This document shows, in pieces, positions 4,396 through 28,523 of a DNA stretch of 38,907 nucleotides. The stretch lies in contig JARBAW010000043.1 of the NCBI GenBank assembly GCA_029237505.1, forward strand, positions 1 through 38,907, written 5' to 3'. The stretch is from Nitrososphaerales archaeon (GTDB lineage: Archaea; Thermoproteota; Nitrososphaeria; Nitrososphaerales; Nitrososphaeraceae). The position numbers and the translations under genes are program-made. Numbering within the stretch: position 1 is the first letter of the stretch; every line of letters starts with the position of its first letter. Below the pieces are notes generated by a model that saw only the letters and a program-made list of their open reading frames with translations, did not search any database and was not told the DNA's origin.

Positions 4396-6026
4396 AATTC
4401 CCAATAGAGGACATCAGTAGGATTTTTTCTGATTATGATCTAGAATACGTTCTAAACATGCTACCCTTTATAGGACTGGATTTAGAGCATCAAGATGATA
4501 AAAATATAAGATTAGAATACAGTCCAAACCGTCCGGATTTTTCTACTTTTTATGGAATTTCTAGAGCCCTAAAGGGATTATTAGGAAAGGAAGTGGGGAT
4601 ACCAAAATTTGAAGTACAGGCGAATAACAATAATCTCATCAATGTGGACCCTTCAGTTTCAGAGATACGACCTTACATCGTGGGCATGGTAGCTAAAGAT
4701 CATAAATTAAGTAACAAAACCATCAAGCAAATTGTTTCTATGCAAGAAGATCTCCACAATGGACTAGGGAGAAGAAGATCAAAGGCATCGATTGGATTCC
4801 ACAATTTGGATAATGTAAATTTTCCATTGGAGTATACAACAATGGAAAATCTGAGTTTTATTCCTCTTGATCATTCTTCAGAATTGACATTAACTGAAAT
4901 ACTATCCAATACTGAACAAGGAAAGAAATTTGGAAAGTTGTTAAAGGACTCTAGCTATCCTGTGTTAAGGGATTCTAAAGGAAATGTGATATCACTTCCG
5001 CCCATAATTAATAGTGAATCAACAAGAATCAGGGATGGAGTTAAAAATTTATTCGTGGAAGTGACCGGTGTTGACAAAAAAGTAGTTTACAATGTCCTGG
5101 ACAATATTACAGTTACATTGGCCGATATTGGATTTAAGTTGGAGACTGTGATTAGGCAACAAGGTAATTCCCGTGATACCTTTAACGCCAATTTGAATAC
5201 TACTTTATCGAACATCAAAACAGATTACATCAACAAGGCACTTGGTCTAACATTGACCAGCGAGGATTTGATAGATTGTCTTCGAAAATGTAGGTTGGAT
5301 GCAACTCCTAATGACTCAAATAGTATCAACTGTATGATACCAAGCTATAGAATCGATATTTTTGGTGCAATTGATATTGTCGAGGAAGTTGCGATCGGCT
5401 ATGGTCTTTATAACATAGAACCTTCTTTACCAAAATCAAGACTTTATGGTAACAAGAGCAGGCAAAATTATTTTTTCGACAAGATTCGACAGGCAATGAT
5501 TGGTATGGGATTAATTGAAAATATCAACTTCATTTTATCTAACAAAGATATTCATTTCAAAAAAATGAATCTAAGCGGCACTAATTTTTTCACAGTAAAC
5601 AATTCAAAGAGCGATGAACACGATATATTGAGAAAGTCACTATTGCCATCTTTACTATATTCATTGTCGAAAAATATACATGAAGAATATCCACAAAAAC
5701 TGTTTGAAATCGGACCAATTTTCGGGCGTGAAGAAGCAAAATTTGAAAAGTGGAGTTTGTCTTGCGTTAGCGCATTTAATGGAGTAACATTTAGCGAGAT
5801 TAGAGCAATTCTACAGTCACTTATGGAAGTTTGCTTTAACGCCAAATTTGAGACAAAACAATCAGGAAACTTATCGTTCGTTAAAGGTAGGAGCGCAGAC
5901 ATCCTCTATAATGGGAATGTAATTGGACAGATTGGAGAAATTTCGCCTTTACTAATCGATAGCTTTAAAATAAAAATGCCTGTAGCCGCCTTTGAGTTAG
6001 ATCTCACAGAATTTTTGCGAATTTGA
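4383..6026 (+). CDS. pheT: Phenylalanyl-tRNA synthetase beta subunit
   Basis: Partner of PheS; the beta subunit carries the editing (B3/B4) domain and tRNA-binding elements. The protein opens with MPVVEFPIEDI, the family's standard start, so I place the start at ATG 4383 rather than at the upstream in-frame GTG (4362) used by the ORF track. LEYSPNRPDFSTFYGISRALKG and the B5-like stretch near residues 285-360 (ending IDIVEEVAIGYGLYNI) are diagnostic. The length of 547 aa matches archaeal PheT, which lacks the bacterial N-terminal EMAP and C-terminal anticodon-binding domains. It overlaps pheS by 13 bp. Confidence 0.96.
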   Translation: MPVVEFPIEDISRIFSDYDLEYVLNMLPFIGLDLEHQDDKNIRLEYSPNRPDFSTFYGISRALKGLLGKEVGIPKFEVQANNNNLINVDPSVSEIRPYIVGMVAKDHKLSNKTIKQIVSMQEDLHNGLGRRRSKASIGFHNLDNVNFPLEYTTMENLSFIPLDHSSELTLTEILSNTEQGKKFGKLLKDSSYPVLRDSKGNVISLPPIINSESTRIRDGVKNLFVEVTGVDKKVVYNVLDNITVTLADIGFKLETVIRQQGNSRDTFNANLNTTLSNIKTDYINKALGLTLTSEDLIDCLRKCRLDATPNDSNSINCMIPSYRIDIFGAIDIVEEVAIGYGLYNIEPSLPKSRLYGNKSRQNYFFDKIRQAMIGMGLIENINFILSNKDIHFKKMNLSGTNFFTVNNSKSDEHDILRKSLLPSLLYSLSKNIHEEYPQKLFEIGPIFGREEAKFEKWSLSCVSAFNGVTFSEIRAILQSLMEVCFNAKFETKQSGNLSFVKGRSADILYNGNVIGQIGEISPLLIDSFKIKMPVAAFELDLTEFLRI

Positions 6027-6031
6027 CCAGA

Positions 6032-6040
6032 ATATTTATA
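6032..6040 (+). promoter_or_regulatory. TATA box just after pheT
   Basis: ATATTTATA lies 5 bp after the pheT stop codon. The next rightward protein gene starts 470 bp away, so this box is unlikely to serve it. Expected initiation about 26 nt downstream is near 6062, eight bases before the first hairpin of the candidate RNA described below. Confidence 0.45.
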
Positions 6041-6061: not shown

Positions 6062-6200
6062 ATTACTTGGTCAATGACTAAATTGACAAAGTAGCCCCGG
6101 TAGAGAGTGCACTACGAGATGTACATTTAATGTATGGCTATCAATGACTAGTTGTGGGTCAGAAACGGGGTACATACCTAATCTATCAATTGTATTTTGT
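6062..6200 (+). ncRNA. Candidate structured non-coding RNA downstream of pheT
   Basis: No ORF covers this stretch on the plus strand, yet it is full of complementary segments. GTCAAT-gactaa-ATTGAC (6070-6087) is a perfect 6-bp hairpin. GTA(g)CCCCG (6091-6099) pairs with CGGGGTAC (6166-6173), closing a domain that holds three further hairpins: GTAG/CTAC (6100-6115), GTACAT/ATGTAT (6121-6135, one G-U) and CAAT/GTTG (6142-6154, one G-U). The 10-mer TCAATGACTA occurs twice (6071, 6141) and places GACTA in two hairpin loops. A TATA box lies upstream and T-rich sequence (6191-6210) follows. The junction resembles a cloverleaf, but there is no TTCRA T-loop, so it is not a normal tRNA. I do not recognise the family; strand is inferred from the promoter. 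Confidence 0.45.
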
Positions 6201-6244: not shown

Positions 6245-6430
6245 TCAATCTGCGGGATTCTTGATTTCATCAAAATAACTCAAAATCAATGATTTTGCGG
6301 AGTCAGATATCTTGAATTGATTCAAAATTGTAACGGTATCTTTAAAGAGTGTTATTCTAAACTCCGGATCAGTATGAGCCTTTTGAATGATCAGATTTAT
6401 TGCTATCTTATCACTGTCGGTATATTGCAT
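6245..6430 (-). CDS. Small NHLP/Nif11-like leader-type peptide, candidate RiPP precursor
   Basis: A 61-residue protein (64 if the in-frame GTG at 6439 is used). The pattern IIQKAHTDPEFRITLFKDTV followed by LNQFKISDSAKSLILSYF resembles the helical leader of NHLP-clan and Nif11-type precursors, which carry a DPEFR-x-L-x-x-D core and then a short second helix. It contains no Cys and no Gly, so it has no double-glycine cleavage site and no cysteine for azoline chemistry. Only a short tail (DEIKNPAD) follows the second helix. A TATA-like CATATTT (complement, centre ~6457) sits 27 nt upstream of ATG 6430, which is why I chose that start. It is divergent from ycaO, with which it shares a short intergenic region. 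Precursor function is inferred from resemblance and position. It could instead be a small regulatory or scaffold protein of the same clan. Confidence 0.6.
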   Translation of the reverse strand: MQYTDSDKIAINLIIQKAHTDPEFRITLFKDTVTILNQFKISDSAKSLILSYFDEIKNPAD

Positions 6431-6507
6431 TCTATCCACTCATACTTTTTACACATATTTCAAATTTTAGAAAAATTGATATTGATACCAAATCATTCAA
6501 ATCTTCT

Positions 6508-7830
6508 ATGGAACTTGAGCCAATATTGCTCAGAAGCCAAAAGAAATTGAAGGGAAAAGTATCATCAAGGATGAAAACTGTACAGGAAACTCTTGATACA
6601 ATTCTTCCAGTTTCAAGCAATATTGGGGTAACAAGACTTGCAGACATTACAGACATGGACATTCTTCGCATACCTAATTTTTCTGCCGTTCTGCCGGGAA
6701 CCGAGGATTACATTTGGGTCTATAGTGGTAAAGGAGCCACAAAACTGGATGCAAAGGCAAGTGCGTTAATGGAAAGCATTGAAAGATATTCCTCATTACC
6801 ATCGGGAAATCAAAAAAGGATGATTCAAACGTCTTATAAAGAAATTTCAAAGGTTTCAAAATCACTACATCCTTCTAATGTGGTAGAACCAATGTTATTT
6901 GATTATGATGAAGAGATGATCATGGATTTTCTCCCCGGATATGACTTGATAAATAACGAAAAGATAATGGTCCCCGCTCCATTGTCTCTTTTTAGATATT
7001 CTCCCAAGCCACCCGCTGTAAATCCATTTGCCTATCATCATACCAATGGTCTTGCTTCTGGAAACGTTTTGGAAGAAGCAGTATGCCATTCGCTATGTGA
7101 AGTAATTGAAAGAGATGCAACAAGTCTTGCGGAATTAAATGCTAGCGCACTACCATACAATACACTCAGGTCATTGAGTAAATATCTATCTGACAAAGGA
7201 GTAAATATAGATCCTATTCCTAGTACCGAATTTGTCGATGATCATACGAAATATCCTGATGTCGATATTTCAAACATTGATTTTAAACCTGTTTCAAATT
7301 TGGTAAGAAAATTTAATGAATCCAGTATTCCACTCATCATTAAGGATATCACCTCTCCTATAGGGATACCAACTTTTAATGCCAGTAGTATTGAATGGAT
7401 TACAGAAAATTATGGATATCTTGCTGAGGGGCATGGAACTCATCCAGATGCAAGAATTGCATTATTGAGAGCAATTACAGAAGTTTCCCAAACGAGAGCT
7501 GCCAATATCCAAGGTGCCAGGGATGATCTCCGAAAAATCTCATATGGGAATAGTAATAGCGACGAAAAAAAGACATGGCAATTTATGAAATCAAACAGCT
7601 CAGTCAAGTTTTCTGAGATAAAATCTTATGTAAACGACGACATCTTAGATGACATCAAACTTATACTTACAAGGCTAAGCTCAAATGGACTCAACCAAGT
7701 AATTGTGGTTGATCTCACAAATCCAAAAATAAAGATACCTGTAGTAAGAACAATAGTACCTGGATTAGAAACTTTCAAAATCACAAAAGCCGTGGTAGGG
7801 AAAAGAGGAAGGGAGTCTTATAGAACATGA
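6508..7830 (+). CDS. ycaO: YcaO-family ATP-dependent backbone-modifying enzyme
   Basis: YcaO enzymes use ATP to activate a peptide amide, leading to azolines, amidines or, with TfuA and a sulfide source, thioamides. In this 440-residue protein, DAKASALMESIERYS (about residues 81-95) and NVLEEAVCHSLCEVIERDA (about 186-204) are the two glutamate-rich ATP/Mg-binding helices of the family. HGTHPDARIALLRAITEVSQTRA is the third conserved helix. The C-terminus lacks the proline-rich tail of azoline-forming TOMM cyclodehydratases. I start at ATG 6508 (MELEPILL); the ORF track extends to 6400 through non-homologous sequence overlapping the divergent gene. tfuA follows with a 4-bp overlap, so the two are translationally coupled, favouring thioamidation over azoline formation. 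The substrate is unknown. Confidence 0.9.
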   Translation: MELEPILLRSQKKLKGKVSSRMKTVQETLDTILPVSSNIGVTRLADITDMDILRIPNFSAVLPGTEDYIWVYSGKGATKLDAKASALMESIERYSSLPSGNQKRMIQTSYKEISKVSKSLHPSNVVEPMLFDYDEEMIMDFLPGYDLINNEKIMVPAPLSLFRYSPKPPAVNPFAYHHTNGLASGNVLEEAVCHSLCEVIERDATSLAELNASALPYNTLRSLSKYLSDKGVNIDPIPSTEFVDDHTKYPDVDISNIDFKPVSNLVRKFNESSIPLIIKDITSPIGIPTFNASSIEWITENYGYLAEGHGTHPDARIALLRAITEVSQTRAANIQGARDDLRKISYGNSNSDEKKTWQFMKSNSSVKFSEIKSYVNDDILDDIKLILTRLSSNGLNQVIVVDLTNPKIKIPVVRTIVPGLETFKITKAVVGKRGRESYRT

Positions 7831-8495
7831 CCAAACCAATTGTATATCTTGGACCTACACTAAGTAGAGAAGAAGCAGTCAAGATTTTGGACGCTGATTA
7901 TAGAGATCCGGCAAAGAAAGGAGATTTCTTGATGTTATCTCAGGATTCGGATGAAAAAAAATATGTTGGGTTTATAGATGGAGTTTTTCTTCATGACTAT
8001 CCTCCACCGCCAATTGAAGTATATCATCTTGCTACAAGAAAGAATATTGAGCTTCTGGGCGCATCCAGTTTGGGGGCACTAAGGGCAGTTGAGTTAGAAA
8101 AGTTTGGAATGAAAGGAATAGGTAGAATCTTTCAACTGTATAAGAGAGGTATAATTGATGCTGATGATGAGGTAGCAGTAACGTTCGTTAAAGGAAGTAA
8201 CACCTTGCAGTCTGAGGCAATGATCGATATTCGTTTCAACTTGTTCTTGGCGTACAAAAAAGGGATAATATCTAAAGATACCAAAAAAAGATTTGCAAAG
8301 ATTGCGAAAGGAACTTACTTTCCATTTAGAAATTATGAAGATCTCGTAGATTTAACCCAACAACAATATCCTTCGATTCACGGTGAGCTTGAAAATTTCA
8401 GGGGGTATATATTACAGAATAGGGACAGTCTTAAGGCTCGCGATGCCGTGAAACTTTTGAAATATCTAAAACTGCATGCGAATAGATATGCGTGA
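7827..8495 (+). CDS. tfuA: TfuA-like protein, YcaO partner
   Basis: TfuA-domain proteins work with YcaO in peptide thioamidation (known for methanogen McrA glycine and thioviridamide-type RiPPs). The core is recognisable from YLGPTLSREEA at the N-terminus, DGVFLHDYPPPPIEVYHL and LLGASSLGALRAVELEKFGMKGIG, followed by the acidic DADDEVAVTF segment. The 222-residue length is normal. Its ATG overlaps the ycaO stop codon. The gene ends 17 bp before the convergent rhodanese gene. Since ammonia-oxidising archaea lack methyl-coenzyme M reductase, the McrA role cannot apply, so the target here is open. Confidence 0.88.
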   Translation: MTKPIVYLGPTLSREEAVKILDADYRDPAKKGDFLMLSQDSDEKKYVGFIDGVFLHDYPPPPIEVYHLATRKNIELLGASSLGALRAVELEKFGMKGIGRIFQLYKRGIIDADDEVAVTFVKGSNTLQSEAMIDIRFNLFLAYKKGIISKDTKKRFAKIAKGTYFPFRNYEDLVDLTQQQYPSIHGELENFRGYILQNRDSLKARDAVKLLKYLKLHANRYA

Positions 8496-11428: not shown

Positions 11429-11503
11429 TGGATGGGGAGAGATTTGAACTCTCGACCACCTGTGTGTGAGACAGGTATCATAACCAGTCTAGACCACCCA
11501 TCC
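11429..11503 (-). tRNA. tRNA-Val (CAC)
   Basis: The minus strand folds into a full cloverleaf of 75 nt: acceptor GGATGGG/CCCATCC (7 perfect pairs), D-arm with GTCTAGACTGGTTATGAT, anticodon stem CCTGT/ACAGG with loop CTCACAC (anticodon CAC), five-base variable loop, T-stem GAGAG/CTCTC with loop TTCAAAT, and discriminator A. The D-arm sequence is the usual archaeal tRNA-Val one. There is no intron and the 3' CCA is not encoded. It reads GUG codons. Confidence 0.96.
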
Positions 11504-28364: not shown

Positions 28365-28523
28365 ATGAAGCACATGCTACGTAAGTGTGGGCATTGCAAG
28401 ATCTACACTCTTGATGAAAAATGTGCAAGTTGTAATAATTCAACTCTTGATCCACATCCGCCAAAGTTTTCTATGGAAGATAAGTACGTAAGATACAGAG
28501 TAAGGGAGAAGCACGAATCGTAG
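28365..28523 (+). CDS. nop10: Nop10, H/ACA ribonucleoprotein subunit (missing from the ORF track)
   Basis: A 52-residue zinc-binding protein of archaeal H/ACA RNPs that guide pseudouridylation of rRNA. Reading from ATG 28365 gives MKHMLRKCGHCKIYTLDEKC and then ASCNNSTLDPHPPKFSMEDK. The CGHC...CASC ribbon, the DPHPPKFS linker and the ending KYVRYRVREKH are all diagnostic of Nop10. Archaeal Nop10 usually follows aIF2-alpha, as here, 7 bp after its stop codon. It is too short for the ORF list supplied. Two nearer ATG codons (28354, 28357) run into a stop within five codons and are not starts. Confidence 0.94.
   Translation: MKHMLRKCGHCKIYTLDEKCASCNNSTLDPHPPKFSMEDKYVRYRVREKHES

Follow-up and report, generated by a model that had tools for sequence, protein, structure and literature searches.

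A conserved core, about 80 nt in length, follows pheT closely on its 3' side, at positions 6095-6174 (+) of the window, the whole stretch of 38,907 nucleotides of Nitrososphaerales DNA that was analysed. The pheT stop codon is at 6024-6026, and the TATA-like box TTTATA (6035-6040, +), which had been placed 5 bp after pheT from inspection of the sequence, is present but starts 8 nt past this stop. In all eight genus members checked, the box was found 60-61 nt upstream of the CCCCG with which the core begins. A 5' leader hairpin (6064-6093, +), which was also described earlier, precedes the core; its helix is kept in the genus and its loop sequence is not. The T-rich sequence reported downstream of the RNA is present as well. 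Further 3' are genes for YcaO (PF02624) and TfuA (PF07812) at 6400-8495 (+), and the beginning of the YcaO ORF is overlapped by an uncharacterised 64-aa ORF (6245-6439, -), which shows 43-66% identity across the genus and has no match in Pfam. The description of the flanking genes as convergent holds only if this 64-aa ORF is real, since the first well-supported gene after the RNA is YcaO, on the + strand.

The sequence-only reading had proposed that an unrecognised structured RNA follows pheT, with a three-hairpin junction of cloverleaf-like shape and two hairpins that expose the same GACTA loop, and it stated that no significance had been computed. The cloverleaf is indeed the minimum-energy fold (-43.7 kcal/mol, z = -2.14), and 5 of 200 shuffled sequences folded as well; such folding of a single sequence is weak evidence when taken alone and can only be called suggestive of a structured RNA. 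Comparative data did not support the cloverleaf, the four pairs of its first small hairpin (GUAG/CUAC) being kept in only 9, 13, 17 and 26 of 26 relatives, respectively. The 10-mer TCAATGACTA occurs twice, 70 bp apart (6071-6080 and 6141-6150), as had been noticed. The first GACTA forms the loop of the 5' leader hairpin, but the second is part of the K-turn/upper-stem strand described below and not a loop. The 10-mer was found twice in only two of eight genus members, and with the repeat not conserved the idea of a double GACTA loop was rejected.

The distribution of the RNA was examined with BLASTN and with a covariance model built from 26 family loci. BLASTN with the window DNA gave matches in 36 of 70 family genomes, which in the more distant genomes were confined to about 6091-6176. 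The covariance model matched 6085-6177 of the window (E = 4.5e-24, the window sequence itself being part of the model) and was positive in 63 of the 70 family genomes and 277 of 400 sampled class genomes, with the copy number nearly always one. No match was obtained with strict filters in the other 123 of the 400 class genomes, for which absence is not established. In a phylum-wide sample of 398 genomes, four positive genomes were found outside the class. Two copies were seen in G047 (contigs C30 and C27) and G116 (contigs C72 and C188), and these assemblies may be mixed. The pattern CCCCG...CGGGG-N-ACA, which itself demanded ACA, extracted the core from 29 of 30 family loci, and the thirtieth (L011) has ATA in place of ACA.

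The position of the RNA is also conserved. Of the 30 family loci that were fetched, all but L005 (29 of 30) have pheT 5' of the RNA and on its strand, and 49 of 57 divergent loci (L080-L136) have pheT within the fetched stretch. In an independent pattern scan of GTDB contigs, the matches listed were mostly from Thaumarchaeota with a minority of bacterial chance matches, and among them pheT was nearby in 92 of 120 stretches. Outside the class, homologs occur without pheT beside them.

An alignment of 77 members was used to examine the fold. For an H/ACA-type hairpin, 94.4% of cells were standard pairs and 14 of 19 pairs showed double changes, with 185 double-change cells observed compared to 46.9 in shuffles and at most 47 in control structures slid by 1-3 columns. 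The fitting of this alignment (A4) to the structure of the model favours that structure. This bias is tempered because only family sequences, among which few pairs change on both sides, went into the model, and because most of the distant matches have independent support from synteny. The claim of an unrecognised structured RNA after pheT was thereby borne out by strong conservation, covariation and synteny, and the comparative evidence supports a single H/ACA-type hairpin, not a cloverleaf, with the anatomy of a box H/ACA guide in place of the three-hairpin junction. For the free RNA of the window the calculated energies were -19.9 kcal/mol for the cloverleaf compared to -12.0 kcal/mol for the bare H/ACA fold and -14.0 kcal/mol for the best fold containing it. 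Given that the cloverleaf is the optimum of the free RNA, the H/ACA fold would need its proteins.

The core (CCCCG...CGGGGTACA; 6095-6174, +), as delimited by the covariance model, alignments A3 and A4 and covariation, contains a basal stem formed by CCCCG (6095-6099, +) and CGGGG (6166-6170, +). This stem is almost invariant, with 99.7% of cells paired in the 77 sequences, and since it hardly varies its support comes from conservation more than from covariation; it is short in Nitrososphaeria (5-8 bp). The ACA box (6172-6174, +) is near-invariant in the aligned members (ATA in L011 and L129), follows the stem after one base and has GUCAG starting 14 nt before it, at 6158. The two strands of the pocket are AGAGAGU (6102-6108, +) and GGGUCAGA (6156-6163, +), the latter complementary to helix 69 of 23S rRNA. 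The 3' strand is conserved throughout the class, GUCAGA (6158-6163) being its near-universal part, and the 5' arm is variable, to the point of being nearly poly-A in G062 and G205. The pocket geometry is irregular in Nitrososphaeria, where most members have two extra bases between the upper stem and GUCAG.

In the upper stem, GCACUA (6109-6114, +) pairs with 6149-6155, leaving one bulged U at 6152; double changes were found in all six pairs across the class and 90.2% of cells were paired. Above it is a K-turn-like motif, made up of GA on the 5' strand (6116-6117, +) and a three-base bulge AAU followed by GA on the 3' strand (6143-6147, +). The GAG/UGA motif is kept in nearly all members, and the C-stem pairs beside it covary (GC, AU, UA, CG). 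The apical hairpin (6121-6135, +) has six modelled pairs, all with double changes and with 94.6% of cells paired, and is reduced in many Nitrosopumilaceae. Beside the apical helix a GGCUA motif (6136-6140 and equivalents) is conserved through most of the class, and no reason for this was found.

These features were compared with the rules for archaeal H/ACA RNAs, which comprise a pocket-to-ACA distance of 14-16 nt together with a K-turn or K-loop (PMC7991803, PMC4652768), and about 10 stacked layers, a basal stem of 5-9 bp, and a target U that is left unpaired together with its 3' neighbour (PMC7991803, PMC4652768, PMC2584109). The RNA has a stem - internal pocket - stem hairpin, for which covariation over 77 sequences passed the controls, and an ACA box just 3' of the basal stem, CGGGG-N-ACA being nearly invariant with its one-base spacer. 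By sequence it has a K-turn-like motif in the upper stem, where GA faces NNN-GA of the opposite strand, a putative L7Ae site. ACA lies 16 nt from the closing pair of the upper stem in the RNA of the window, and 14 nt from GUCAG. Stacked layers between the pocket and the GA pairs number 9 and 10 on the two strands if the RNA is placed on U1917 of the 23S rRNA and 11-12 if it is placed on U1921 (see below). The few homologs outside the class are modelled as archaeal H/ACA RNAs of textbook form. In L300 the basal stem is 9 bp and is followed directly by ACA, the pocket is 5/5 nt (AAAGA/GUCAG), the upper stem is 8 bp and the stacked layers number 10; L252 has a similar fold.

Genes for Cbf5 and Nop10 were found in all six genomes tested, including that of the window. 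The Nop10 gene, for a core protein of the H/ACA RNP, is encoded in the window itself (28365-28517, +). Neither a C box (RUGAUGA) nor a D box (CUGA) occurs in 6095-6174, and a box C/D sRNA was rejected. A tRNA or tRNA-like RNA was rejected as well, since ARAGORN and Rfam detected only a tRNA-Val at 11429-11503. Rfam 15 contained no family matching at the gathering score, and at E<=10 the sole match was a weak one to mir-308, located outside the core. No description of an H/ACA guide for Nitrososphaeria (Thaumarchaeota) was found in the open papers searched. Judged by these signatures, the RNA is an unannotated representative of the known H/ACA guides, somewhat unusual in its geometry. Its identity as such a guide appears very likely, and for the whole explanation, a small and probably independently transcribed box H/ACA guide RNA, we estimate a probability of about 0.8.

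For the target, 23S positions are given in E. coli numbering, obtained by aligning GUAACUAUAACGG with GUAACUCUGACUC. When the 3' arm was fixed by a 14-nt ruler, U1921 ranked first of all 16S and 23S uridines in 17 taxa. It scored 9.18 compared to 6.59 for the next site and 7.47 for the null maximum, and none of 1000 permutations reached it; the ruler was chosen from the published 14-16 nt after the sequence had been seen, at a cost of no more than threefold. A free scan of the 17 taxa with their own rRNAs also placed U1921 first, and 3 of 400 joint permutations reached it. In the U1921 model (position 1993 of the genome's own 23S) GAGA of the 5' pocket strand pairs with 23S UCUU. In yeast, the positions that correspond to 1921 and 1923 are pseudouridines.

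In the U1917 model (own position 1989) AGAGAGU pairs with 23S ACUCUCU (1919-1925), the second arm is GGGU, there are no gaps and the distance to ACA is 16 nt. With the window's own arms and no gaps, U1917 was the best of all uridines (10.5 compared to 8.0 for the next), and 264 of 20000 arm shuffles did as well somewhere in the rRNAs. U1917 fits as well as U1921 in the genus of the window. As a single class-wide target it was rejected, the 5' arm failing in Nitrosopumilaceae and in genus g7. A third candidate is U1923, which zero-gap geometry favours in Nitrosopumilaceae, but with only two pairs on the 5' side. For the bipartite complementarity expected of such guides, which leaves UN unpaired between at least 3 pairs on either side, helix 69 is significant over the class, but the uridine that fits differs with lineage and geometry. 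Helix 69 is the probable target region, and, since the pocket geometry is irregular and the 5' arm variable, U1921 is put forward as the modified uridine only at even odds or slightly worse.

Three 23S genes, at loci L152 (G146), L137 (G205) and L146 (G175), each carry about 0.7 kb of inserted sequence at helix 69/71. The insertions sit after ...GACUCUC or ...UUAAGGUA and contain open frames of 167-196 codons that by eye resemble LAGLIDADG endonucleases. They are probably rRNA introns beside the predicted guide target.

Other explanations of the locus have to account for the same observations. The RNA might be part of an H/ACA-like RNP that acts on helix 69 mainly through its 3' strand, as a chaperone of rRNA folding rather than, or besides, a guide. 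GRGUCAGA(G) can pair with up to 9 contiguous 23S bases (1914-1922), GRGUCAGA giving 8-9 contiguous pairs, and the poor conservation of the 5' arm would be in keeping with such a role. However, the ACA box, the K-turn-like motif and the 14-nt ruler are requirements of a Cbf5 guide, and outside the class the pocket of the homologs is balanced (5/5). An additional pairing of the apical GGCUA with 23S UAGCC (1931-1935) was considered and, over all sites, was not distinguished from other UAGC sites. We regard a chaperone as unlikely.

A cis-acting element in the 3' UTR of the pheT or pheST mRNA, affecting stability or termination, for example by L7Ae binding to the K-turn, would explain why, in most of the class, the RNA shares its strand with pheT and lies just 3' of it. 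Such an element would leave the pocket and the ACA box unexplained, in the genus a separate TATA-like box stands between pheT and the RNA, and the homologs outside the class do not adjoin pheT; this explanation is rated as even less probable than a chaperone. That non-coding DNA happens to fold here by chance could be argued from the modest margin over shuffles (5/200), but it is refuted by the class-wide conservation, covariation and synteny and has a negligible probability.

Under the preferred reading as an H/ACA guide, transcription, protein binding and modification are what we infer from the computed features, namely conservation, position after pheT, fold, ACA box, K-turn-like motif, 14-nt ruler, helix 69 complementarity and the Cbf5 and Nop10 genes. 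The RNA would probably be transcribed independently of pheT. L7Ae would bind the K-turn-like motif in the upper stem, and Cbf5, with Nop10 and Gar1, the basal stem and ACA box. The pocket would then pair with helix 69 and offer one uridine to Cbf5, which would convert it to pseudouridine.

The most specific version, an undescribed H/ACA guide family across Thermoproteota that adjoins pheT in much of Nitrososphaeria and modifies U1921 through an offset pocket, is tentative, and we give it somewhat less than even odds. If true, the guide acts on the 3' side of helix 69 (U1921) and not on the U1915/U1917 pair known from Euryarchaea. The RNA is present in many sequenced ammonia-oxidising archaea and relatives. 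An Rfam family could be started from the alignment. Several hundred genomes could then be better annotated, and proximity to pheT would serve as an easy check on position.

In Nitrosopumilaceae, Nitrosotalea and L080 a second ACA-ended hairpin lies immediately upstream of the core; among L084-L118, for example in L087 and L102, its distance from CCCCG is about 75 nt. Its conserved loops GACGG and ACCCAG are complementary to CUGGGU-UUAGA-CCGUC, found once in each 23S tested, and match 23S CUGGGUUUAGACCGUC near the peptidyl transferase centre, at about E. coli 2579-2594. No target by the UN rule was found for this hairpin in Nitrosopumilaceae, and its spacing does not follow the rule. It resembles the first of two hairpins in an H/ACA RNA.

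Among known systems, the RNA was compared with the archaeal single-hairpin box H/ACA sRNAs of Pyrococcus, Archaeoglobus, Sulfolobus (Sso1) and Pyrobaculum (sR201/sR202). It shares with these one hairpin with a pocket, a K-turn-like motif in the upper stem, an ACA box and the 14-16 nt ruler, and its predicted rRNA complementarity would likewise flank an unpaired UN on both sides. In contrast to them, the Nitrososphaeria RNA has a 5-8 bp basal stem, one base before ACA, two extra bases between upper stem and GUCAG and a gene located after pheT, and family members have an extra apical helix with GGCUA at its side. Haloferax HP2 (Hvo2) and Pyrococcus Pf7 stem III/Pab40.3, the former a predicted guide and the latter (Pf7 stem III/Pab40) a tested guide for the same helix, are likewise H/ACA guides aimed at helix 69, for pseudouridines 1915 and 1917 (PMC2584109, PMC4652768), and Haloarcula has pseudouridines 1956/1958 in the helix 69 loop, which correspond to E. 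coli 1915/1917 (PMC2584109). In Haloferax and Pyrococcus the partner hairpin aims at 2586 (HP1 in Haloferax), and in Nitrosopumilaceae the loops of the upstream hairpin match 23S near 2579-2594. Set side by side by the described targets only, this is a hint, and only a hint given that the upstream spacing breaks the UN rule, that the Nitrosopumilaceae pair could be related to HP1/HP2. The best class-wide target here is U1921, compared to U1915/U1917 for the Haloferax HP2 and Pyrococcus guides, with U1917 fitting in the genus of the window.
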